Source: Chromatiales bacterium (GTDB lineage: Bacteria > Pseudomonadota > Gammaproteobacteria > Thiohalomonadales > Thiohalomonadaceae). From it: a stretch of 64,000 nucleotides of DNA. Every line of letters starts with the position of its first letter. Positions within the stretch are counted from its first letter, which is position 1. The notes beneath the pieces were generated by a model. That model was not told where the DNA came from, searched no databases, and was given only the letters and a program-made list of their open reading frames with translations. The position numbers and the translations under genes were made by a program. Where the stretch lies: positions 1 to 64,000 of the forward strand of contig QKFD01000091.1 in the NCBI GenBank assembly GCA_003251535.1, given 5' to 3'. This document shows, piece after piece, positions 21,275 to 41,281 of the stretch.

Positions 21275-21319
21275 ATGTTAGAGCTGTCTTATTACAGCTA
21301 TATGACAGCCCCATGACGG
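21275..21319 (-). promoter_or_regulatory. PhoB box and -10 of the pstC-A-B-phoU operon
   Basis: On the minus strand three 7-bp units at 11-bp pitch read CCGTCAT, CTGTCAT and CTGTAAT (21313-21319, 21302-21308, 21291-21297), close to the PhoB repeat CTGTCAT. Exactly 10 nt later comes a -10-like TAACAT (21275-21280), the normal PhoB-promoter geometry in which the box replaces the -35. Confidence 0.82.
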
Positions 21320-21341
21320 ACCATTACAGGGAGATGGCAGT

Positions 21342-24641: not shown

Positions 24642-24675
24642 ATTGTGCGCGCCCAATATGACAGTCACATGACAC
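24642..24675 (-). promoter_or_regulatory. PhoB box and -10 of pstS
   Basis: Minus-strand direct repeats GTGTCAT and CTGTCAT (24669-24675 and 24658-24664) with a 4-bp spacer match the Pho box. Ten nt downstream is CACAAT (24642-24647), in the position of the -10. The 40-nt leader then reaches the pstS ATG. Confidence 0.85.
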
Positions 24676-24700
24676 CCGCGCGCCCCTCAACGGTTTTATT

Positions 24701-24744
24701 GTGACAGCCCTATGACGCCTCGCGGGCTGTCATAGAGCTGTCAT
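24701..24744. promoter_or_regulatory. additional PhoB boxes at the phoR 3' end
   Basis: A second minus-strand box (GCGTCAT-N4-CTGTCAC, 24701-24718) overlaps the phoR stop codon and lies 43 bp, about four helical turns, from the pstS-proximal box. A third, perfect box (CTGTCAT-N4-CTGTCAT, 24727-24744) is on the plus strand inside the last codons of phoR. Extra upstream boxes are common at strongly induced pstS promoters. Confidence 0.75.
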
Positions 24745-26038
24745 GGGAGACGATCCACTCTTTGCCAAAGTCGCAGGCAAAGGTGCTGCCTTTGCCCACC
24801 TGACTTTGGATACGTAGCGGTGTGCCATAACGGGTCAGCACATGTTTGACGATGGCCAGCCCCAGGCCGGTCCCGCCACTCTCCCGGGAGCGCCCCACAT
24901 CCACCCGATAAAACCGCTCCGTCAGGCGCGGGATATGCTCTTCAGCGATCCCGGGGCCGGTGTCGGTCACCTCAAAGTGGGCGCCGCGGACATCGAGATA
25001 CCAGCGCATGGTGATACTGCCGTTGGCCGGGGTGTAACGCACTGCATTGGAGACCAAATTACTAAAGGCGCTGTGGAGCTGCTTCTCCACCCCATAGATG
25101 CGCAGCGCGGGATCGCACTCCAAGCGGATCTGGTGGTTACGCTCGCCGGAGAGCAGTTCGGCATCTTCGCGGATGGCGGCCAGCATCGCCGGCACCACCA
25201 CAGGGTCGCGGGGCGGGGCGCTGCGGTCGGTCTCCAGGCGGGAGAGCAGGAGCAGGTCCTCCACGATCTGCTGCATCCGATTGGCCTGTTGCTGCACCAG
25301 GCGCAAGGGTCGTCCCCACTCGCGGATGCAGGGGTCATCGGCATCCATCATGGTCTCGGCGCAGCCGCTCACCACCGTCAGGGGGGTGCGCAGCTCATGG
25401 GAGACATTGGCCACGAAGTCACGCCGCATCTGCTCCAGCCGCAACTGGTGGCTGACATCACGGGCGATAAGCAGCCGCTGTTCGTTGCCGTAGGGGATCA
25501 CCCGCACGCTCAAGGTGGTGCCGTCGTTGGAGTCCGCCGGCATCAATAGCGAGCCGCTGCTGGGGTCACCGCCATTGAGGAGGGCGGCAAAGCCGGGGTG
25601 GCGCACCAGATTATCGATACGCTGACCCCGATCCTTGGCAGGGTGGAGCCCGAGTAGACCGCGGGCCGCCTCGTTGAACCACTGGATCTCGTTGTGGGCC
25701 CCCAACACCACCGTGGCGTCGGGCATGGCGGAGGTGGCCTCCTGGAAGCGATTGACCACCTGCCCCAGCTTGCGCTGGCGCTTCAAGTGGCGCTGCTGCA
25801 CCCGATAGAGCTGGTGGAACACCTCACCCCAGAGACCGCGGGCATCCGGCGGCTCGCCTCGCCCACCGGCGGAGAGCCACAGCACCATCGCCCGCAGGTG
25901 GTAGAGCTGGATCCCGAGATAGAACGAGATGGTGAAGAGCAGGGTCCAGGCGATGGCCCCCAGCAACTGGCCAGCAATACAACCGATGACCACTGCGACG
26001 ATGAGCCGCCACGCCTCGGAAGACCATGCCTTGCCCAA
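24710..26038 (-). CDS. phoR: phosphate regulon sensor histidine kinase PhoR
   Basis: Membrane kinase/phosphatase for PhoB, with 442 residues. Two N-terminal hydrophobic helices (about 10-45), a PAS domain (about 98-200, MPDATVVLGAHNEIQWFNEAA), a HisKA helix with phosphoacceptor H214 in NVSHELRTPL, and a HATPase domain with N-box FSNLVSNAVRYTP, G1 DTGPGI and G2 GGTGLGLAIV. This is the standard PhoR layout. The start is 3 bp after the phoB stop, so the pair is cotranscribed. Its last codons carry PhoB boxes for pstS. Confidence 0.95.
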   Translation of the reverse strand: MGKAWSSEAWRLIVAVVIGCIAGQLLGAIAWTLLFTISFYLGIQLYHLRAMVLWLSAGGRGEPPDARGLWGEVFHQLYRVQQRHLKRQRKLGQVVNRFQEATSAMPDATVVLGAHNEIQWFNEAARGLLGLHPAKDRGQRIDNLVRHPGFAALLNGGDPSSGSLLMPADSNDGTTLSVRVIPYGNEQRLLIARDVSHQLRLEQMRRDFVANVSHELRTPLTVVSGCAETMMDADDPCIREWGRPLRLVQQQANRMQQIVEDLLLLSRLETDRSAPPRDPVVVPAMLAAIREDAELLSGERNHQIRLECDPALRIYGVEKQLHSAFSNLVSNAVRYTPANGSITMRWYLDVRGAHFEVTDTGPGIAEEHIPRLTERFYRVDVGRSRESGGTGLGLAIVKHVLTRYGTPLRIQSQVGKGSTFACDFGKEWIVSHDSSMTAREAS

Positions 26039-26041
26039 GGT

Positions 26042-26725
26042 CTATACCTGTGTTGAGAAGCGGTAGCCGGTACCGCGAACGGTCTGGATATAGCGATCCT
26101 GACCCGAGATAGAGAGGGCCTTGCGCAGGCGCCGGATGTGGACATCCACCGTGCGCTCCTCCACATAGGTGCCCCGCCCCCACACCATATCCAGCAGCTG
26201 GTTACGACTATAGACCCGCTCCGGATGGGACATGAAGAAGTGGAGGAGGCGAAACTCGGTCGGCCCCATATCCACCGGCTTGGTTTCAATGGTGACGCGG
26301 TGGCTGGCGGTATCGAGCCGAATTCCTCCCAACTCGATCAGGCCATCATCGCCATGGGCCTGGGTGCGCCGCATCACCGCCTTGATGCGGGCGATCAACT
26401 CCCGAGTGGAGAACGGCTTGGTGATGTAGTCGTCCGCCCCGACCTCCAACCCACGGATGCGATCATCCTCCTCGCTCCGGGCAGTGAGCATGATGATGGG
26501 CACCTCCCGGGTATACTCATCCCGACGCAGGCGCCGCGCCAACTCAATCCCACTGACGGTCGGCAGCATCCAGTCCAGCAGGATGAGATCGGGCAGCGCG
26601 TCGGCCACGCGCCGCTCTGCCTCCTCAGCATCGGCCGCGACATTGATACGGAACCCAGCCCGTTCCAGTGCCATACACACCATCTCTCGGATGGCTGGTT
26701 CGTCTTCCACCAGCAAGATATTCAT
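26042..26725 (-). CDS. phoB: phosphate regulon response regulator PhoB
   Basis: OmpR/PhoB-family transcription factor with 227 residues. The receiver domain has acidic pocket residues E8/D9, phosphoacceptor D51 (LLDWMLP) and the conserved Lys in [10 protein letters not shown]. The C-terminal winged helix contains [26 protein letters not shown] and the recognition helix [12 protein letters not shown] followed by VRGTGYRF. Once phosphorylated it would bind the boxes noted before pstC, pstS and its own gene. Confidence 0.96.
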
Positions 26726-26888: not shown

Positions 26889-27668
26889 ATGAACCGCCTA
26901 CTCGATCCCACCTCCACACCCCCCGCCGAAGGTGAGCCACTGCTGCTCCACGGGGAGGGCAACCATCGGATCTATTGGGTGGGGATCCGTCACGCGACGG
27001 CCTTCCGCTGCAACACCTATCTCCTGATCGATGGAGAGGAGGCGCTCCTCATTGATCCCGGTAGCCGCGCCTTCTTCCCCCAGGTGCGCGAGAGCGTCGC
27101 CCGGGTGGTGGAACCCAACCGCGTCATGGGTCTAGTCCTCTGTCATCAAGACCCTGACGTCGCCGCCTCGCTCCCTGACTGGCTGGCACTCAACCCTCGC
27201 CTCACCGTCTTTACCAGTCCCCGCACCCAGGTACTCCTGCCCCACTACGGGGTCAGCGGTTATCGCTTCTACGATGTGGAGGCCGAGCCGGAGTACCAGC
27301 TCGCCGGCGGTGGCGGGTTACGCTTCATCGGCGCACCGTTCCTCCACTCCCCGATGGCCTTCGCCACCTTCGATCAATGTTCCGGTGCGCTCTTCTCCGG
27401 TGACATCTTCGCCGCCATCGATAACAGCTGGCAGCTGGTGGTCACTCAGTGGGCGGCCCATACCGCCAAGATGGATCTCTTCCATCTCGATTACATGGCC
27501 TCCCATGTGGCGGCCCAGGGATTTGCCCGGCGCCTGCGGGAGCTGCCACTGCAAGCCATCCTGCCCCAGCACGGCTCCATCATCCCCCATGATTTCGTCC
27601 CGGACGCCATCGGCTACCTGGAACAGCTCCAGTGCGGCCTGGACGTCCTCTACCCCGATCTCAGCTGA
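26889..27668 (+). CDS. ODP/flavodiiron-type metallo-beta-lactamase-fold protein
   Basis: Stand-alone MBL-fold domain of the kind found in flavodiiron proteins and in ODP oxygen sensors. It has 259 residues from the ATG at 26889; an ATG at 26862 is an alternative. Candidate diiron ligands are in the expected order: H86, D88 and D90 (CHQDPD), H153 (FLHSPM), D172 (FSGDIF) and H228 (PQHGSI). D88 takes the place of the usual Glu, and the position of the next His (HxExDH) is Val. There is no flavodoxin domain, so oxygen/NO reduction by electron transfer from FMN is unlikely and a sensor role is more plausible (inference). It is followed 28 bp later by a c-di-GMP protein, a pairing that suggests oxygen input to second-messenger output. 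Confidence 0.8.
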   Translation: MNRLLDPTSTPPAEGEPLLLHGEGNHRIYWVGIRHATAFRCNTYLLIDGEEALLIDPGSRAFFPQVRESVARVVEPNRVMGLVLCHQDPDVAASLPDWLALNPRLTVFTSPRTQVLLPHYGVSGYRFYDVEAEPEYQLAGGGGLRFIGAPFLHSPMAFATFDQCSGALFSGDIFAAIDNSWQLVVTQWAAHTAKMDLFHLDYMASHVAAQGFARRLRELPLQAILPQHGSIIPHDFVPDAIGYLEQLQCGLDVLYPDLS

Positions 27669-27696
27669 CGCCGTGACTACGCCCGCCCTTTCGGCG

Positions 27697-30339
27697 ATGG
27701 AACGCATACAACAGTTGGAACAGGAGCTTCAGCAACTCCGCGAGGAGGTACGCCAAGCGGAGCGGCTACGCCGCATGTGGCAGGAGGCGGTGGGTCAACT
27801 GAAGCGGACCCGCGCCGATCTCCTGGCGGCACAACAGGCGTTGCAGGCGAGTAACAGCGCCCTGGAAGAGCGGGTGGCGGAGTTGGGTGCGGCCAAACAC
27901 ACCCTAGAGCGACTCGCCTACAGCGATGAGCAGGTGATCGAGAACATGCAGGAGGGGTTGGTGGTGACCGACGCCAGCGGCACCATCCTGGCGGTCAACC
28001 CCGCCTTCTGCGCCACCACAGGCTATAGCGCTGAAGAGGTCATTGGCCATAACCCGCGCCTGTTGCGCTCTGGTCGCCATGAGGATGGCTTCTATCAGGT
28101 CATGTGGCGCGCCCTCAGCCAGCATGGCCGCTGGCAGGGGGAGATCTGGAATCAGCGTAAAAACGGTGAGATCTACCCAGAGCTGCTCAGTATCAGTGCC
28201 CTGCGGGACTGGCGCGACGACACCATCAACTATATCGGGGTCTTTACCGACATCACCTCTAGCAAACAGGCGGAGGAGGCCCTACGGGCCAGCCAGGAGC
28301 AGCTGGCGGCGGTGACCGCCCTACTCTCCGATGGGGTGGTGATGTTGGATACCGATGAGCGCATCACCTTTGCCAACCCCGAGGCGTGCCGCCTCACTGG
28401 ACGCCCCCTGGCGGAGCTGCTGGAGCACCGCCACACCGATGTCTTGAAGACGGTGGAGCCGCGCGGCCCATTCCTGCTGCCGCCCGGCAGCACGGTACGC
28501 ACCCTGATAGATGAGCACGAGCCCGCCGAGTTCGAGGACCTACACCTCATCCGCCGCGACTCCACCACCCTGCCGATAGCCCTCGCCTCCAGCCCCATCA
28601 TCCAGGGTGAGCGCATCGTCGGTGCCGTGGCCGCCTTCCACGACGTAAGCCGCCGCAAATCGGTGGAGGAGCAGCTGCTCAAGCTCTCCCGGGCGGTGGA
28701 GCACAGCCCGGCCATGGTGGTCATTACCGATCTCCAGGGGAGCATCGAGTACGTCAATCCCCGCTTCACCGAGCTGACCGGCTACGCCCCCGAGGAGGTG
28801 GTAGGGCAGTCCACCGCCGTACTGAAGTCGGGCCGCACCGCCCCAGAACTCTATAGCGAGCTGTGGGAGACCATCCGCTCCGGCCGCGACTGGCATGGCG
28901 AGTTTCTCAATCGCACCAAGAGCGGTGAGCTGTTCTGGATGATGGTCTCCATCTCCCCCATCGTGGATGCCGAGGGGAACATCACCCACTTTGTCTCGGT
29001 GGAGGAGGACATCACCGAGCGTAAGCGGACGGAGGAGAAGATTTGGTATCAGGCCAACTACGATAGCCTCACCGGCCTACCCAACCGCCGCCTGTTCCAT
29101 GATCGACTGCACCAGGCGCTGACCCACGCCCTAGTGGAGCACCGCTCCGGCGCCCTGATGTTCATCGACCTCGACCGCTTCAAGTATGTCAACGACACCC
29201 TTGGCCACGACGCCGGCGACGAGTTGCTGCTCCTGGCGGCGCGCCGACTGGGCGAGTGTGTCAGTGAGGCCGATACCGTGAGCCGTCTGGGGGGCGATGA
29301 GTTCACCGTCATCCTCCCCACCATCAGCAGCGCCCATCGGGCCGAGGGGGTCGCCCAGGCGATCCTGGAGGCACTGACCATCCCGGTGGCCCTCAAAGGG
29401 CAGGAGCTACTCATCTCCGGCTCCATCGGCATCGCCCTGTTCCCGGAGGATGGCGAGACCGTAGAGGAGCTGCTCAAGCGGGCCGATTCGGCGATGTATC
29501 GGGCCAAGGATCGCGGCCGCAACACCTTTGTCTTTTACACCGAAGAGGTGAATGAACTCACCCTGCGCAAGATCGCCATCGAGACCGAACTGCGCCGCGC
29601 CCTGGAGCGCGAGGAGTTGGAGGTGGTGTTCCAACCCATTCTTGATCTCGCAGGCGGAGAGCCGGCCGCCATGGAGGCGCTGCTGCGTTGGCAAAACGCC
29701 CGCCTTGGCGCCATCTCCCCGGCCACCTTTGTCCCTATCGCCGAGGCGGCCGGCCTGATGCCGGCCATCGGTGAGTGGGTACTGATCCGCGCCTGTGACG
29801 AGGCGGCCAGTTGGCACAACCGCAGCGGGCTAGAGGTGCCGGTCTCGGTCAACATCTCCTTGGCACAGCTCAAACATGAGGAGTTTCCCGGCCGGGTCCG
29901 CGCCATACTCGCCGAGAGCGGCCTCCCCCCAGCGCTGCTGATCCTGGAGGTGACCGAGAGCATGGTGATGGATGAGCCGACCCACTACATCACCCAGCTG
30001 GAGCGGCTCTCGGCCCTCGGCGTGCAGGTGGCCATCGACGACTTTGGCACCGGCTACTCCTCTTTGAGCTACCTCAAACAGATGCGCGCCCAGACCCTCA
30101 AGATCGACCAATCCTTTGTCCGCGATCTCCCCCGTGATGGCGACGACGCCACCATCGTGCGCACCGTCATCGCCATGGCCCACCACCTCAATATGCGGGT
30201 CACCGCCGAAGGGGTGGAGCATGAAGATCAACTCGCCTTCCTCCGCGAGGCGGGGTGCGATCGCAGCCAAGGATTTCTCCACGCCAAACCGATGGCAGCC
30301 GCCGAGGTGGTACGCTGGTTGGCGCAATTCAAGACGTGA
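27697..30339 (+). CDS. three-PAS diguanylate cyclase/phosphodiesterase (GGDEF-EAL)
   Basis: Cytoplasmic c-di-GMP turnover protein of 880 residues with no membrane segment. A coiled coil (about 1-75) is followed by three PAS domains (about 78-195, 208-320 and 325-450). A GGDEF domain (about 455-615) has intact SRLGGDEF near 531, and an EAL domain (about 625-878) has MEALLRW near 659 and the loop-6 DDFGTGYSS near 781. The inhibitory-site RxxD is SEAD, so product inhibition is probably lost. Both catalytic motifs look active. The ATG at 27697 is favoured, with a GTG at 27673 as the alternative. The in-frame extension back to 27274 overlaps the MBL gene in another frame and is not coding. Confidence 0.92.
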   Translation: MERIQQLEQELQQLREEVRQAERLRRMWQEAVGQLKRTRADLLAAQQALQASNSALEERVAELGAAKHTLERLAYSDEQVIENMQEGLVVTDASGTILAVNPAFCATTGYSAEEVIGHNPRLLRSGRHEDGFYQVMWRALSQHGRWQGEIWNQRKNGEIYPELLSISALRDWRDDTINYIGVFTDITSSKQAEEALRASQEQLAAVTALLSDGVVMLDTDERITFANPEACRLTGRPLAELLEHRHTDVLKTVEPRGPFLLPPGSTVRTLIDEHEPAEFEDLHLIRRDSTTLPIALASSPIIQGERIVGAVAAFHDVSRRKSVEEQLLKLSRAVEHSPAMVVITDLQGSIEYVNPRFTELTGYAPEEVVGQSTAVLKSGRTAPELYSELWETIRSGRDWHGEFLNRTKSGELFWMMVSISPIVDAEGNITHFVSVEEDITERKRTEEKIWYQANYDSLTGLPNRRLFHDRLHQALTHALVEHRSGALMFIDLDRFKYVNDTLGHDAGDELLLLAARRLGECVSEADTVSRLGGDEFTVILPTISSAHRAEGVAQAILEALTIPVALKGQELLISGSIGIALFPEDGETVEELLKRADSAMYRAKDRGRNTFVFYTEEVNELTLRKIAIETELRRALEREELEVVFQPILDLAGGEPAAMEALLRWQNARLGAISPATFVPIAEAAGLMPAIGEWVLIRACDEAASWHNRSGLEVPVSVNISLAQLKHEEFPGRVRAILAESGLPPALLILEVTESMVMDEPTHYITQLERLSALGVQVAIDDFGTGYSSLSYLKQMRAQTLKIDQSFVRDLPRDGDDATIVRTVIAMAHHLNMRVTAEGVEHEDQLAFLREAGCDRSQGFLHAKPMAAAEVVRWLAQFKT

Positions 30340-34822: not shown

Positions 34823-35827
34823 ATGATCTTCCACCCGATGGTCTGGCGGTCCCTGCCGCTACTCCTCTGCCTCCTCTCCAGCGCGGCCCAAGCCGAACAC
34901 CCCCCTATTCCACTGCGCGGACCGCCCTTCTCCGATCCCGCCCAACTCGCCCCGGTCCCGGCGGGTTGGGGGCAGCGCCCCATCGCCTACGCCGACTGGG
35001 CACGCGGTGCCGCCTTCGCCATCACCCTCGACCAGCACCTCTACCCCGCCCTGCTCCCCTATGTGCAGCACTTTGCCCGTGAGCACCAGGTGGATATCGC
35101 CGTGCAGGAGGGGACCTGTGGCACCTCGGCCGGCGCCCTGACCCGCAAACAGGCGGATATGGGGGGCTTCTGCTGTCCGCCGAGTTTGGAAGATCGGTTA
35201 CCCGGGCTGACCTATCACACCGTCGGCATCGCGGCCCTGGCGCTGTTGGTCAATAGCAGCAATCCCGTGGACAACCTACCGCTGGAGACGGTGCGCCTCG
35301 CCTACCGCGGCAAGCGCTACCGTTGGTCGGAATTTCATAGTCGAGAGGGGGCGATCGGGCCGGACCTCCCTCTATTTCCATTGAGCCGACTCCACTGCAA
35401 GAGCCGCCCCGGCCACTGGCGGCTACTGCTGGACAACGAGGATCTCTTTGGCCCCAATGTTGCCGAGATGAGTAGCATTCCCGATATGATGCAGCAGGTG
35501 GCCAGCGATCCCAGCGCCCTCGGTTATGAGGTCGCCTGGAACATCCCCCGTGAGCAGGTGACAGGTAAGGTACGCACCATCGCCATTGACGGCTACTCAC
35601 CGTTCGATGAGCAGGCGCTATTGCGGGGCGACTACCCGCTCTACCGCACCTACAACATCACCACCTGGGAGGGGGCCCAGGCCAAGCCATTGGCGACCCA
35701 ACTGGTGGCCTATCTCATGGAGCAGGTGGAGCGGCACGGCCATGAGTTTGGCATCGTCTCAACCCAGCGGCTCAAGGCGGCGGGTTGGCGCTTCCGTGGC
35801 AACGAACTCTACGACGAACCCCATTGA
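34823..35827 (+). CDS. PstS-like periplasmic substrate-binding protein
   Basis: Exported type II periplasmic-binding protein of 334 residues with a signal peptide (SLPLLLCLLSSAAQAE, cut near 24). The central region, EGTCGTSAGALTRKQADMGGFCCPP, resembles the anion-binding GTS-x-GAL segment of PstS. The following VGIAALALLVNSSNPVDNLPLETVRLAYRGKRYRW is the hinge and strand block shared with PstS. Four cysteines (C99, C117, C118, C192) are unusual in a PstS. No transporter genes adjoin it. Instead it starts a cassette with a histidine kinase 3 bp downstream, so it probably delivers ligand information to that kinase. The ligand is likely an oxyanion such as phosphate, but that is inference. The ATG at 34823 follows GGGAG; longer in-frame codons lack a signal peptide. 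Confidence 0.8.
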   Translation: MIFHPMVWRSLPLLLCLLSSAAQAEHPPIPLRGPPFSDPAQLAPVPAGWGQRPIAYADWARGAAFAITLDQHLYPALLPYVQHFAREHQVDIAVQEGTCGTSAGALTRKQADMGGFCCPPSLEDRLPGLTYHTVGIAALALLVNSSNPVDNLPLETVRLAYRGKRYRWSEFHSREGAIGPDLPLFPLSRLHCKSRPGHWRLLLDNEDLFGPNVAEMSSIPDMMQQVASDPSALGYEVAWNIPREQVTGKVRTIAIDGYSPFDEQALLRGDYPLYRTYNITTWEGAQAKPLATQLVAYLMEQVERHGHEFGIVSTQRLKAAGWRFRGNELYDEPH

Positions 35828-35830
35828 GCG

Positions 35831-38395
35831 ATGTTCTCCCGCATCCCCCTCCTGCCCAAAATGTTGCTCCTCACCCTGTTGGTGGGGGCACTTATCTGGG
35901 TGCCGCTCGATCTCTTCCACACCCAGCGTCTGGCGGAGTTAATGCGGGCCCAACAGATGGCGCAGTTGGAATTTTCTGCCCAGGAAGATCGGGTCTACTT
36001 CGATCACTTTCTCCGCACCTACCACCAGGCGGCCCGCTTCTTCGGCGCGGAGAACCGCCTCAGTGACTATCTCGATCAGATCGAAGCCAACGGCAGTTGG
36101 CAAACCGATGCGGTGATCACCCCACAGCAGGTGGACCTACCGCCCCCCTGGCTACCGCGCACCTCCGTGCTCCGCATCTTTCCGCTCCCCCGCTTCGTGC
36201 TGCTGCTGGATAGCGATGAGCAGGTCAGGGAGATCTACGCCTCCGGCGAGACGCCACCGCCCCACCAGCTACTCCACCCCCAGGCCATCTTGATGCAGCT
36301 GAGCCACTCGGGCGTCCTGATGTCCAACGTCGGGGGGATCCCCTACCTGCTCAGCTCAGAGGCGATAGTGGCCGACGACGGGCGGCTGCGGGCCCGTCTC
36401 ATCCTCGCCACCCCCCTCGATAGCGAGTTCCTCCGCAACGCCCAGAAACCAGGGGTAGAGGACCATCTCACCCTGCTGATCCGGGACGACCGAGTAGTGG
36501 CCAGCAGCCGCCCCGATCTCATCCCCGAAGGGGAGACCGTGGCCACCTTCAAACACCACTACATGATCCTGGGCAAGTCCTTCTTCGACTACGGTGTCGC
36601 CGATCTCTTCGTCCAGTTCGCCACCGTAATGTCCACCAGCGAGGTGGAGGCGCTCACCCGTGAGCTGCGCCACGAGGAGCGCCGGCTACGCGCCTTCACC
36701 GCCGCCGGGCTATTGACCGCCTTCCTGCTCATCATTATCTGGGTCACCCGTTCCGTCCGCCGCGTCACCCAGCAGATCACCAGCTTCTCCCGCCAGACCT
36801 TGGGGGTCGATCCCCAGGAGTTGAGCGGTGATGAGCTGAAGATCTTGGCGCTCCAGTTCACCGCCCTGCGTAGCGAGATCGAGGCCTCCCGCGCCGCCCT
36901 CACCGAGGCGGTGGAGGAGCGTACCCGCAGCGAGCTAGAGGCGGCCCAGCAGGCCCAGATGGTGGCCCTGCTGCGTAATGTCACTGACGCCCTGGGGGTC
37001 GGCGTGCTGCGGCTCGGCCCGCAACCACAACCCCTCAACGGCGTGATGGAGCGGCTGTTTGCCTGCTGTCCAACCCTCTTCTCGCTGGCAGAGGATGAAG
37101 AGTCGGCGGAGCGCGAGGTGATCGACGCCAATGGCCGGTTGCGGGTGTTTGACCTCCACCGCCCCCTGGAGGAGTTTTTGCTCGTACTGGAGATCACCGA
37201 GGCGCGTGAGACCCGCCAGCGCCTCGCCCTCGCCCTCCAGGCCATTGAGCACACCACTGAAGGGGTCTTTGTCACGGAGGCCGACGGCACCGCCATCCTG
37301 GTCAACCCCACCCTCGCCCGCCTCATCGGCATCGACGAGGAGGGGACCCGCCAGCGGCGCCTCCCCCTCCTCCCGCTACTCACCGACGACCCGCAGCTGC
37401 GGGCGGAGGTGGAGCAGGGCCTGGCCCAGACCGGCAGCTGGGAGGGGGATCTCACGCTGCACACCGACACCGGCAACCACCGCCTCTGGCTACGCCTCGG
37501 CCAGGTGCAGGAGCAGACCAGCGACACCCTCCACTATGTCGGCGTGGTGTCAGACATCACCGAGCGCCACCTCGCCACCGAACGGCTGGCACGCTACGCC
37601 GAGGAGCTGCAACAGGCCAATGAGGAGGTGAAGAGCTTCGCCTCCATCCTCTCCCACGACCTGCGCTCCCCCCTGGTCAACGTCAAGGGGTTTGTCGGGG
37701 AGTTGCGCCACGCGGTCACCACCCTGCAACCGCTGCTCGATGGCACCCAGGCAGAGCCCCTGACCCCAGAGCAACAGCAGCTGGTGAAAGAGACCTTCAG
37801 CGCCGATATCCCCGAGGCGCTTGATTTCATCGACGCCTCGGTGCGCAAGATGGACCGCCTGATCCAGGCTATCCTCACCCTCTCCCGCCTGGGCCGGCGG
37901 GAGCTAAAACCGGAGCCACTGCCCTTGGGTCCCCTGGTCGAGGAGCAGATCGAATCGCTCCGTTTCCAACTGGAGCGGCGCCAGGCCACCATCACCGTGG
38001 GAGAGCTGCCGGTGGTCCTGGCCGATCGCACGGCCATGGAGCAGATCTTCGGCAACCTCATCGGTAACGCGGTCAACTACCTCGTCCCCGAGCGCCCCGG
38101 CCGGATCACCATCCGCGCCGATGAGGGGGTCAACGAGGTGCAGATCCACATCAGCGACAACGGACGCGGCATCGACAGCGCCGATTTCCCCAAGGTCTTT
38201 GCCATCTTCCGCCGGGCCGGCCCCCAAGATGTGCCGGGCGAGGGGATGGGACTCGCCTTTGTGCAGACCTTGGTTCGCCGCCATGGTGGCCGCATCTGGT
38301 TCCAATCGGCCCTCGGTGTGGGCAGCACCTTCAGCATCGCCCTGCCCCGTCAGCCACTCACCTCACTACCGAGTCACCGCCGCCATGCCGCCTGA
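35831..38395 (+). CDS. membrane sensor histidine kinase with PAS domain
   Basis: Hybrid-free kinase of 854 residues. TM1 is at about 11-30, with a periplasmic sensor region at about 31-290 (dCache-like length). TM2 at about 292-310 is followed by a HAMP/coiled-coil linker and PAS-like regions (about 380-455 and 465-585). A HisKA domain has its phosphoacceptor in SFASILSHDLRSPLVNV near 605, and the HATPase domain has N-box FGNLIGNAVNYL, G1 DNGRGI and G2 GEGMGLAFVQ. The HDLRSPL phosphoacceptor box with an Rcp-type regulator immediately downstream is a common pairing. The start lies 3 bp after the binding-protein stop, and the end overlaps the response regulator by 11 bp. Confidence 0.9.
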   Translation: MFSRIPLLPKMLLLTLLVGALIWVPLDLFHTQRLAELMRAQQMAQLEFSAQEDRVYFDHFLRTYHQAARFFGAENRLSDYLDQIEANGSWQTDAVITPQQVDLPPPWLPRTSVLRIFPLPRFVLLLDSDEQVREIYASGETPPPHQLLHPQAILMQLSHSGVLMSNVGGIPYLLSSEAIVADDGRLRARLILATPLDSEFLRNAQKPGVEDHLTLLIRDDRVVASSRPDLIPEGETVATFKHHYMILGKSFFDYGVADLFVQFATVMSTSEVEALTRELRHEERRLRAFTAAGLLTAFLLIIIWVTRSVRRVTQQITSFSRQTLGVDPQELSGDELKILALQFTALRSEIEASRAALTEAVEERTRSELEAAQQAQMVALLRNVTDALGVGVLRLGPQPQPLNGVMERLFACCPTLFSLAEDEESAEREVIDANGRLRVFDLHRPLEEFLLVLEITEARETRQRLALALQAIEHTTEGVFVTEADGTAILVNPTLARLIGIDEEGTRQRRLPLLPLLTDDPQLRAEVEQGLAQTGSWEGDLTLHTDTGNHRLWLRLGQVQEQTSDTLHYVGVVSDITERHLATERLARYAEELQQANEEVKSFASILSHDLRSPLVNVKGFVGELRHAVTTLQPLLDGTQAEPLTPEQQQLVKETFSADIPEALDFIDASVRKMDRLIQAILTLSRLGRRELKPEPLPLGPLVEEQIESLRFQLERRQATITVGELPVVLADRTAMEQIFGNLIGNAVNYLVPERPGRITIRADEGVNEVQIHISDNGRGIDSADFPKVFAIFRRAGPQDVPGEGMGLAFVQTLVRRHGGRIWFQSALGVGSTFSIALPRQPLTSLPSHRRHAA

Positions 38396-38822
38396 TCACC
38401 AGACCACCCTGCTGTTGGTGGAGGATGACCCGGGCCACGCCCGGCTCATAGAGAAGAACCTGCGACGCACGCGGCTCGCCTGTCCCCTGCGACATGTGAG
38501 CGATGGTCAGGCGGCGCTCGACTTCATCTACGGCAGCGGGACCTTCTGCGGTGAGACGCCCCCCCGCCAGCTGATTGTCCTGCTCGATATCAACATGCCC
38601 GGCCTGGACGGCTTCCAGGTGCTAGAACAGATAAAGACCGATCCGCGCACCCGTACCATCCCGGTGATCATCCTCACCACCACGGATGACGAGCGCGAGG
38701 AGCGCCGCTGCTACGAGTTGGGTTGTGATCTGTACATTACCAAGCCGGTCGACTACGCCGCCTTCAGCGAGGTGGTACAGCGGCTCGGGGTCTATCTCTC
38801 GCAACTGGCGGTGAGCGCATGA
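38385..38822 (+). CDS. Rcp1-type single-domain response regulator
   Basis: Receiver-only protein of 145 residues. It has the acidic pocket E13/D14/D15 (LVEDDPGHARLIEKNL), phosphoacceptor D68 (VLLDINMPGLDG), a Thr in ILTTTDDEREERRCYELGCDLYITKP, and K120. The insertion between strands 2 and 3 and the C-terminal FSEVVQRLGVYLSQL helix are typical of Rcp1-like regulators. It overlaps the kinase gene by 11 bp and the following REC-GGDEF-EAL gene by 4 bp (ATGA), so the three are translationally coupled. It probably relays phosphate from the kinase or competes for it. Confidence 0.9.
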   Translation: MPPDHQTTLLLVEDDPGHARLIEKNLRRTRLACPLRHVSDGQAALDFIYGSGTFCGETPPRQLIVLLDINMPGLDGFQVLEQIKTDPRTRTIPVIILTTTDDEREERRCYELGCDLYITKPVDYAAFSEVVQRLGVYLSQLAVSA

Positions 38823-41281
38823 TCCGGGTGTTATGTATCGAAGACGATGACGCGATGGCGCGCCTGGTGCAGCGTCGGCTGGAGCGTAGCGGCTACACCT
38901 GTACCCTGGCGGCCAACGGCGAGCTGGGCCTGGAGTTGGTGCAGCGCGGGTCATTCGACATCGTGATTGCCGACTACTGGATGCCCGGGGTCTCCGGCAT
39001 GGAGGTGCTCAGTGAGCTGAGCCACCACATCGATCCGCCGCCGGTCATCATGCTCACCGGCCTGGATGACCTTGAGGTGGCCGTCTCGGCCATGCGCCTG
39101 GGGGCGGCCGACTTCCTCAGCAAGGACACCCAAGGTCGCTACCTCGACCTACTCCCGGCGGTCATCGAGCGGGTCATCAGCCGGCGCCGGCTGGAGGGGG
39201 AGCGGGAGGCGGCGCGGGCCCTGGCCCAGGTCACCCTAAGTTCCATCTGCGATGCGGTCATCACCACCGACGCCAACGGCTGCGTCAACTACCTGAACCC
39301 AGTGGCCGAGCAGCTGACCGGCTGGCCCAAAGATGAGGCCAGGGGGCGCCAGGCGGCGGAGATATTCCGCACCATCCATGAGGTGAGCCGCCAACCGCAG
39401 CCCGATCCCGTCGCCCAGGTGCTGAGCAGCGGTGCGGTACCGCGCCGCGGCAACCACACCCTACTCCTCACCCGCGACGGCCGTGAACTCCCCATCGACG
39501 ACAGCGCCGCCCCCATCCGTGACCTCCAGGAGCGGATCCTCGGGGTGGTGCTAGTGTTTCAGGACGTCACCGCCCGCCGCGAGTCGGAGCGCAGCCTGCG
39601 GATGTTCCAGAAGCTGTTTAAACACACCTCTGAGGGGATCATCGTCACCGACCCAGTCGGGGTGATCCAGGATGTCAACCACGCCTTCTGCCGCATCACC
39701 GGCTATAGCCGCGACGAGGTGTTGGGCCGCACCCCGGCGGTGATGAAGTCCAACCGCCATGACGCGGAGTTCTACCAAGCGATGTGGCGCCGCCTCCTCG
39801 CCTCCGGTGAGTGGCAGGGGGAGGTGTGGGACCGGCGCAAGAGCGGTGAGATCTACCCCAAGTGGCTCTCCATCAATGCGGTGCGCAATAGCCACGGCGA
39901 GACCACCCACTACGTCGGCATCTTCAGCGACATCACCACCATTAAGCGCACCGAGGAGCGGCTCCACCAACTCGCCCACTACGACACCCTCACCGCCCTC
40001 CCCAACCGGATGCTGTTTCAAGACCGACTGGAGCAGACCCTCCTGGGGGCGGAGCGCCACGACCGCGGCTTTGCGGTGATGTTCATCGACCTCGATCGCT
40101 TCAAGATGATCAACGACACCCTCGGTCACCGCGCCGGCGATGCCCTGCTGGTGGAGGTGGCGCGCCGCCTCAGCAGCACCGTACGGGAGAGCGACACCGT
40201 GGCCCGCCTGGGGGGCGATGAGTTCACCGTGATCCTGCCCGAGTTGGTGGAGCGCTCCCATGCGTCCCAAGTGGCGCAGAAGATCATCGAGGCCTTTGCC
40301 CTCCCCTTCACCATCCAGGGTCAGGAGCTGTTCACCAGCCCCTCCATCGGTATCGCCCTCTACCCGGAGGCGGGGCTGAGCGCCGAGGCGCTGACCAAGG
40401 CGGCCGATAGCGCCATGTATCAGGCCAAGGCGCGGGGTCGTAACAATTTCCAGTTCTACCGCCCCGACGCCAGTGATCTCGCCCACGCCCAGCTGGCGCT
40501 GGAGCACGACCTGCGCCAGGCGTTGGCACGGGGCGAACTGATCCTCCACTACCAACCGGAGATCGCCATCGACAGCGGCGCCGTCACCGGGGTGGAGGCG
40601 CTATTGCGCTGGCGCCACCCGCAGCGAGGCGAGGTGGCACCGGCGGAGTTCATCCCCATCGCCGAGGAGAGTGGGCTCATCAACGCCATCGGCGCGTGGG
40701 TGCTGGAGACCGCCTGCCGCGAGGCGGCCAGTTGGGAGAGCAAGGGGTGTGCCCCGCTGCGCGTGTCGGTCAACATCTCGGCCCAACAGGTGCAACAGGG
40801 CGATTTCATCGCCACCGTGAGCCAGGCGCTGACCCGCAGCGGCCTGCCCCCGGAGCGGTTGGAGCTGGAACTCACCGAGTCGCAGATCATGCGCAGCCGC
40901 GAGGAGTGCCGTGAGCGGTTTGACGCCTTACGGGCGATGGGGGTACAGCTCTCGGTGGACGACTTCGGCACCGGCTACTCCTCCCTCGCCTACCTCAAGC
41001 GCCTACCCATCACCAGCCTCAAGATCGACCACACCTTCATCCGCGACCTCTACGTCAACCACGACGACGCCGCCATCTCCCGCGCCATCATCGCCATGGC
41101 CAAGACCCTCAATCTGCGGGTGGTGGCAGAAGGGGTGGAGTCCGAGGCGCAGATGGCCTTCCTGCGCCAGGAGCAGTGCACCAACGCCCAGGGGTTCTAC
41201 TTCAGTCCGCCGGTCTCGGCGGAGGAGCTGCCCGGGGTGCTCCAAGGGTGGCAGAGGAGGCGCGCCGGCGAACCCGGCTAA
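38819..41281 (+). CDS. response regulator with two PAS, GGDEF and EAL domains
   Basis: Protein of 820 residues that would set c-di-GMP levels in response to phosphorylation. The receiver domain (1-125) has D9-D11, phosphoacceptor D52 (IVIADYWMPG) and K102. Two PAS domains (about 145-255 and 262-375) follow. The GGDEF domain (about 385-545) has intact RLGGDEF near 465 and an inhibitory-site RESD five residues before it. The EAL domain (about 560-812) has GVEALLRW near 590 and DDFGTGYSS near 714. All catalytic motifs are intact, so switching between synthesis and breakdown is possible. It is the last gene of the binding protein-kinase-regulator cassette and is followed convergently by the M1-like peptidase gene (4-bp overlap). 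Confidence 0.93.
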   Translation: MIRVLCIEDDDAMARLVQRRLERSGYTCTLAANGELGLELVQRGSFDIVIADYWMPGVSGMEVLSELSHHIDPPPVIMLTGLDDLEVAVSAMRLGAADFLSKDTQGRYLDLLPAVIERVISRRRLEGEREAARALAQVTLSSICDAVITTDANGCVNYLNPVAEQLTGWPKDEARGRQAAEIFRTIHEVSRQPQPDPVAQVLSSGAVPRRGNHTLLLTRDGRELPIDDSAAPIRDLQERILGVVLVFQDVTARRESERSLRMFQKLFKHTSEGIIVTDPVGVIQDVNHAFCRITGYSRDEVLGRTPAVMKSNRHDAEFYQAMWRRLLASGEWQGEVWDRRKSGEIYPKWLSINAVRNSHGETTHYVGIFSDITTIKRTEERLHQLAHYDTLTALPNRMLFQDRLEQTLLGAERHDRGFAVMFIDLDRFKMINDTLGHRAGDALLVEVARRLSSTVRESDTVARLGGDEFTVILPELVERSHASQVAQKIIEAFALPFTIQGQELFTSPSIGIALYPEAGLSAEALTKAADSAMYQAKARGRNNFQFYRPDASDLAHAQLALEHDLRQALARGELILHYQPEIAIDSGAVTGVEALLRWRHPQRGEVAPAEFIPIAEESGLINAIGAWVLETACREAASWESKGCAPLRVSVNISAQQVQQGDFIATVSQALTRSGLPPERLELELTESQIMRSREECRERFDALRAMGVQLSVDDFGTGYSSLAYLKRLPITSLKIDHTFIRDLYVNHDDAAISRAIIAMAKTLNLRVVAEGVESEAQMAFLRQEQCTNAQGFYFSPPVSAEELPGVLQGWQRRRAGEPG

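Follow-up and report, generated by a model that had tools for sequence, protein, structure and literature searches.

We suggest that four tightly packed genes in the 64-kb stretch of DNA analysed here (the window) encode a transmembrane signalling operon, in which a PstS-like periplasmic solute-binding protein (SBP) would report to a membrane-bound histidine kinase and, through it, to an enzyme of c-di-GMP turnover. That the architecture runs from SBP through sensor to c-di-GMP is, on comparative sequence and predicted structure, highly probable; the complete explanation, which adds that the input is likely a sulfur oxyanion, is one towards which we lean. In the mechanism that we propose, the secreted SBP would bind a small periplasmic ligand, for which a sulfur oxyanion (thiosulfate, for example) is the likeliest candidate, in what would be the old phosphate pocket, now furnished with four cysteines and a retained Arg and His. 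The loaded or the unloaded SBP would then dock on the kinase at its LuxQ-like periplasmic domain and so alter kinase activity, and the kinase would phosphorylate an Rcp1-type receiver, the receiver domain of a GGDEF-EAL protein, or both. The resulting shift in c-di-GMP, probably towards net hydrolysis, would act on attachment or motility.

The external signal is known for few c-di-GMP networks. A 2022 census of such networks mentions no sulfur compound and gives SBP_bac_3 as the only periplasmic-binding-protein family that had been studied in them (PMC8846402). The literature searched held no prior description of PstS-like SBPs with c-di-GMP enzymes, or of the four-cysteine family, and we regard the operon as a new form of SBP-sensor c-di-GMP signalling. 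If this proposal is true, the choice of a place to settle by sulfur-oxidising and magnetotactic bacteria would find an explanation in a dedicated sensor that couples sulfur compounds to their attachment or motility, and the four-cysteine pocket makes the question of the ligand directly testable.

Gene organization and surroundings

The first gene (34823..35827, + strand) encodes the SBP, a protein of 334 residues with a Sec-type signal ending in AQA, recognized by PF12849 (E 3e-8) and, below its cut-off, by TIGR02136 (E 2e-13). The gene for a sensor histidine kinase of 854 residues (35831..38395, +) starts 3 bp past the SBP stop codon and is overlapped by 11 bp by that of a stand-alone Rcp1-family receiver (38385..38822, +; PF00072), which is overlapped in turn by 4 bp by that of a REC-PAS-PAS-GGDEF-EAL protein (38819..41281, +). 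Pfam calls, in gene order, are PBP_like_2; PAS-HisKA-HATPase_c; Response_reg; and Response_reg-PAS-PAS-GGDEF-EAL. The genes, their order, coordinates and overlaps are exactly as the initial annotation had described them, and its remark that the binding protein comes without a transporter also stands, since no transporter gene adjoins the operon. The flanks are occupied by a divergent ilvD and, from reading the sequence, by a convergent peptidase-like gene.

PhoB and PhoR (24710-26725), both scoring over curated cut-offs, are encoded about 8 kb upstream of the operon. The window holds 10 PhoB-box matches against 4 expected, and strong matches cluster near PhoBR at 21291-21340 and 24658-24744, one of them perfect (24727). 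No match was found near 34.6-34.8 kb, ahead of the operon, which bears out the earlier claim that the operon has no PhoB box. A second PAS/GGDEF/EAL protein is encoded about 4.5 kb upstream of the operon (27274-30339, +), and its nearest NCBIfam model is DibA, at 770 bits, below the cut-off.

A conserved pair of binding protein and sensor

In the kinase, a periplasmic domain of about 260 residues (35912..36694, +) is enclosed by two hydrophobic segments, near residues 11-29 and 286-306, and PAS, HisKA and HATPase_c domains follow, with the H-box SHDLRSPL at residue 608 and a weak HAMP match. The AlphaFold2 model of the periplasmic domain (pLDDT 92) finds its best PDB match in LuxQ, the classic SBP-partner kinase (3c38, E 3.8e-7, TMt 0.61); the top matches, 3c38 and 3c30, have moderate TM values of 0.5-0.6, and the lead of LuxQ over other dCACHE domains is small. 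Sequence-level searches found no match of the domain to LuxQ and no confident Pfam family for it in the window's kinase, and CHASE4/dCache is detected weakly in relatives.

The SBP has 71 unique close relatives (the SBP-A family, 37-50% identical), and in 59 of the 71 its gene lies on the same strand directly upstream of one that encodes this periplasmic sensor domain; the two genes usually overlap by 4 bp. Across 369 genomes of the window organism's class, SBP-A occurs in 11 and the sensor (threshold E<1e-20) in 14, which include every one of the 11; these counts are uncorrected for phylogeny. SBP and sensor distances are strongly correlated (Mantel r 0.815), a value reached by none of 5,000 random partner swaps. 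Because swaps limited to paralogues of the same genome never reach it either (0/5000), the correlation argues for partner-specific co-evolution beyond shared ancestry alone. By these comparisons, SBP and sensor have been conserved together and co-evolve in many bacteria; the SBP is carried, among others, by Magnetovibrio blakemorei MV-1 and by Nitrospirae/Thermodesulfovibrionales MAGs. The initial annotation had held that dispersal of the genes in relatives would speak against a common pathway: the SBP-sensor pair is not dispersed, while the four-gene order in part is.

We note two unusual loci. One (L169, 7858-8268) has just a short SBP-like fragment, possibly a decayed SBP, upstream of an intact sensor kinase; in the other (L059, 6040-12624) a single SBP gene has sensor-GGDEF-EAL genes on both sides, which suggests that the enzyme was duplicated around a shared SBP.

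Interchangeable outputs

The receiver belongs to the Rcp1/RcpB family (3heb, E 3e-38; best named matches RcpB 1k66, E 2e-24, and Rcp1 1jlk, E 3e-19), and its predicted phospho-acceptor Asp lies in a DINMPG motif that starts at residue 68. The signatures of the REC-PAS-PAS-GGDEF-EAL protein are intact (RxxD of the I-site at 456, GGDEF at 465, EAL at 593, DDFGTGYSS at 714), and its nearest NCBIfam model is the phosphodiesterase DibA (NF045675, 722 bits against a cut-off of 980). Among 64 proteins bearing the sensor, HATPase_c was found in 49, GGDEF in 14, EAL in 12 and an HD-GYP-type HD domain in one. In relatives the sensor is fused directly to GGDEF-EAL, GGDEF or HD-GYP, and in several genomes its kinase versions are followed by REC-DUF3369-HD-GYP proteins. 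Of 48 paired sensors, 17 have a c-di-GMP turnover domain either in the protein itself or no more than 1.5 kb downstream, as against 1 of 27 other kinases at the same loci (p 0.001, with a small control set); in many cases the output is an ordinary kinase that has no c-di-GMP gene in its vicinity. The outputs behind the pair are interchangeable, and many are predicted to make or break c-di-GMP.

It could be argued that the receiver and the GGDEF-EAL protein are mere neighbours of a kinase that signals elsewhere, given that the four-gene order, with its Rcp1 receiver and REC-PAS-PAS-GGDEF-EAL protein, was not seen in relatives and was found in the window only, and that in other relatives the sensor has transcription regulators as partners. 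We consider this very unlikely in view of the 11 bp and 4 bp gene overlaps, of fusions elsewhere that join this sensor to c-di-GMP enzymes, and of an independent kinase-Rcp-REC-PAS-GGDEF-EAL cluster on contig C1 of the same genome. That cluster has a different input, so the window operon may combine a conserved input with a relay that can be reused. The single pathway from SBP through kinase to c-di-GMP that had been proposed at the outset is supported by genomic comparison, with adjacency, co-evolution, the LuxQ-like sensor and the fusions to GGDEF-EAL and HD-GYP all pointing to it. The nearest analogue of the window's relay is a locus (L136; 44-505, 4438-7976) with an SBP-sensor kinase, an Rcp-like receiver and further kinases downstream.

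A cysteine pocket in a PstS fold

The AlphaFold2 model of the SBP (pLDDT 91) has the fold of the PstS phosphate-binding proteins (Foldseek 4gd5, TMt 0.82; 4exl, 0.79), in which three loops hold the phosphate. In a profile alignment to PstS chains, C99 falls within the first of these loops, C117 and C118 align with the Ser-Arg pair of the second, and C192 aligns with a Ser of the third, so that Ser/Arg/Asp positions that coordinate phosphate in PstS are cysteines in the SBP. The protein scores 50.6 bits against TIGR02136, the model for PstS, whose cut-off is 206.6. It also differs from PstS in having a sensory partner and no adjacent transporter; it is a PstS protein by fold, and not by score, by ligand residues or by transporter.

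C99, C118, C192 and H191 are invariant in the 71 SBP-A relatives, C117 and R189 are each present in 70, and the mature protein of 65 contains exactly four cysteines; the motif is also kept in two more distant SBP subfamilies. The cysteines near the predicted ligand loop, which the initial annotation had singled out as unusual, are real, and because they are nearly invariant in relatives they are, as the alignment has it, no local oddity. One of the distant four-cysteine subfamilies (L065-L070, L072-L074), spread over several genomes of the window organism's class, adjoins GGDEF proteins of about 530 residues with a different sensor. The other distant subfamily (L030, 7552-9987; L031, 5576-6532) carries Tat-like RRxFL signals and has sox genes alongside; Tat export could hint at a cofactor or at prefolding. 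A gene at L031 that had been read as TsdA was reassigned after NCBIfam SoxA/SoxX models were applied. The other PstS-like protein of the window's genome (L002) lacks the four-cysteine motif.

The nature of the ligand

Sensing of phosphate (or arsenate), as first proposed, would be in keeping with the PstS fold, with the distant similarity to TIGR02136 and with the presence of PhoBR in the same window. We think it very unlikely, because cysteines replace the PstS ligand-loop positions and the gene neighbourhoods speak for sulfur metabolism: where these are informative, relatives adjoin sox and not pst genes. The missing PhoB box counts against it as well.

Sulfur is suggested by several loci. 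In one SBP-A genome (G392) the genes for the SBP and its sensor kinase lead into one for a NarL-type regulator, immediately behind which lie soxX, soxY, soxZ, soxA and soxB; in two genomes of the window's own family (G007 and G015) a more distant four-cysteine SBP, with a kinase gene nearby, lies beside sox genes, in G015 together with a sigma-54 regulator. The window's genome has soxB, and most SBP carriers tested have Sox or DsrA genes: of the 22 without SoxB over cut-off, 17 have DsrA over cut-off, a figure gauged in SBP carriers only, and five (G096, G400, G401, G406, G416) have neither over cut-off. As a general test of the sulfur link, SoxB co-occurrence failed in the phylum sample, where there is no enrichment (5/42 vs 60/396), and enrichment is weak in the class. 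Two further leads were set aside. Several loci have rhodanese genes downstream, but ffh comes next in the block, and they carry little weight for sulfur; the reading of a conserved upstream set of genes for 1300, 265 and 195 residues as a molybdoenzyme proved wrong, the large and small genes being the housekeeping genes PurL and Maf. Our best guess for the ligand is thiosulfate or another sulfur oxyanion, and we see about as much chance of its being wrong as right, since SoxB is not enriched in the phylum, a single SBP-A locus (G392) is itself next to sox genes, and DsrA was gauged in carriers only.

It is also conceivable, if rather unlikely, that within the same architecture the cysteines form a redox or metal site that senses Cu, Zn, Hg, arsenite or, through a disulfide switch, the periplasmic redox state, in place of a sulfur oxyanion. 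The SBP has four invariant or nearly invariant cysteines and two His; AioX, of another SBP family, binds arsenite by a single cysteine in its pocket and passes the signal to a kinase (PMC5908839), and periplasmic disulfide switches control c-di-GMP enzymes (PMC8846402). However, no metal or arsenic genes were seen beside the close-family loci examined, sox genes lie beside SBP-A in G392 and beside more distant four-cysteine relatives, and the pocket Arg of an oxyanion binder (R189) is kept. Returning to a sulfur ligand, we tentatively put forward a wider hypothesis, which we would expect to fail somewhat sooner than to hold: that the four-cysteine PstS-like proteins are a widespread family that senses periplasmic thiosulfate or reactive sulfur, perhaps covalently, and forms with the LuxQ-like sensor a plug-in input, which sulfur oxidisers of several phyla may have connected both to sox transcription and to c-di-GMP outputs of five or more kinds.

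Relation to known systems

By analogy, the operon would work like LuxPQ and NspS-MbaA, with an SBP reporting to a membrane sensor. NspS binds polyamines and its fold is not PstS-like, and LuxP is from another SBP family and has a ligand that resembles a sugar. LuxP-LuxQ, the AI-2 receptor of Vibrio, likewise joins a periplasmic SBP to a kinase, the one that the sensor domain here matches best in structure, but LuxQ is a hybrid kinase and there is no four-cysteine pocket. In the NspS-MbaA polyamine system of V. cholerae and S. meliloti (PMC8967002, PMC9993111), the SBP controls a c-di-GMP enzyme via a periplasmic sensor, and its two-gene plan with a GGDEF-EAL partner recurs among relatives of the window operon; MbaA, however, is itself the GGDEF-EAL protein; the window operon, by contrast, works through a kinase and two receivers. 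TspS-TspR and ThsS-ThsR are two-component systems for which a response to thiosulfate has been proposed or shown (PMC6335251, PMC5408782), and TspSR sits upstream of a sox cluster. Both have transcriptional output; in the parts of these accounts drawn on here, no SBP is mentioned for TspSR, and the sensor of ThsS is a PhnD-like domain inside the kinase. AioX-AioS-AioR and the ArxX/ArrX systems (PMC5908839) differ in their PhnD-like SBP, whereas that of the window has the PBP_like_2/PstS fold, in a single pocket cysteine and in their transcriptional output, but they share with the window operon, as we read it, an oxyanion SBP with cysteine in its pocket, a kinase of its own and a response regulator.
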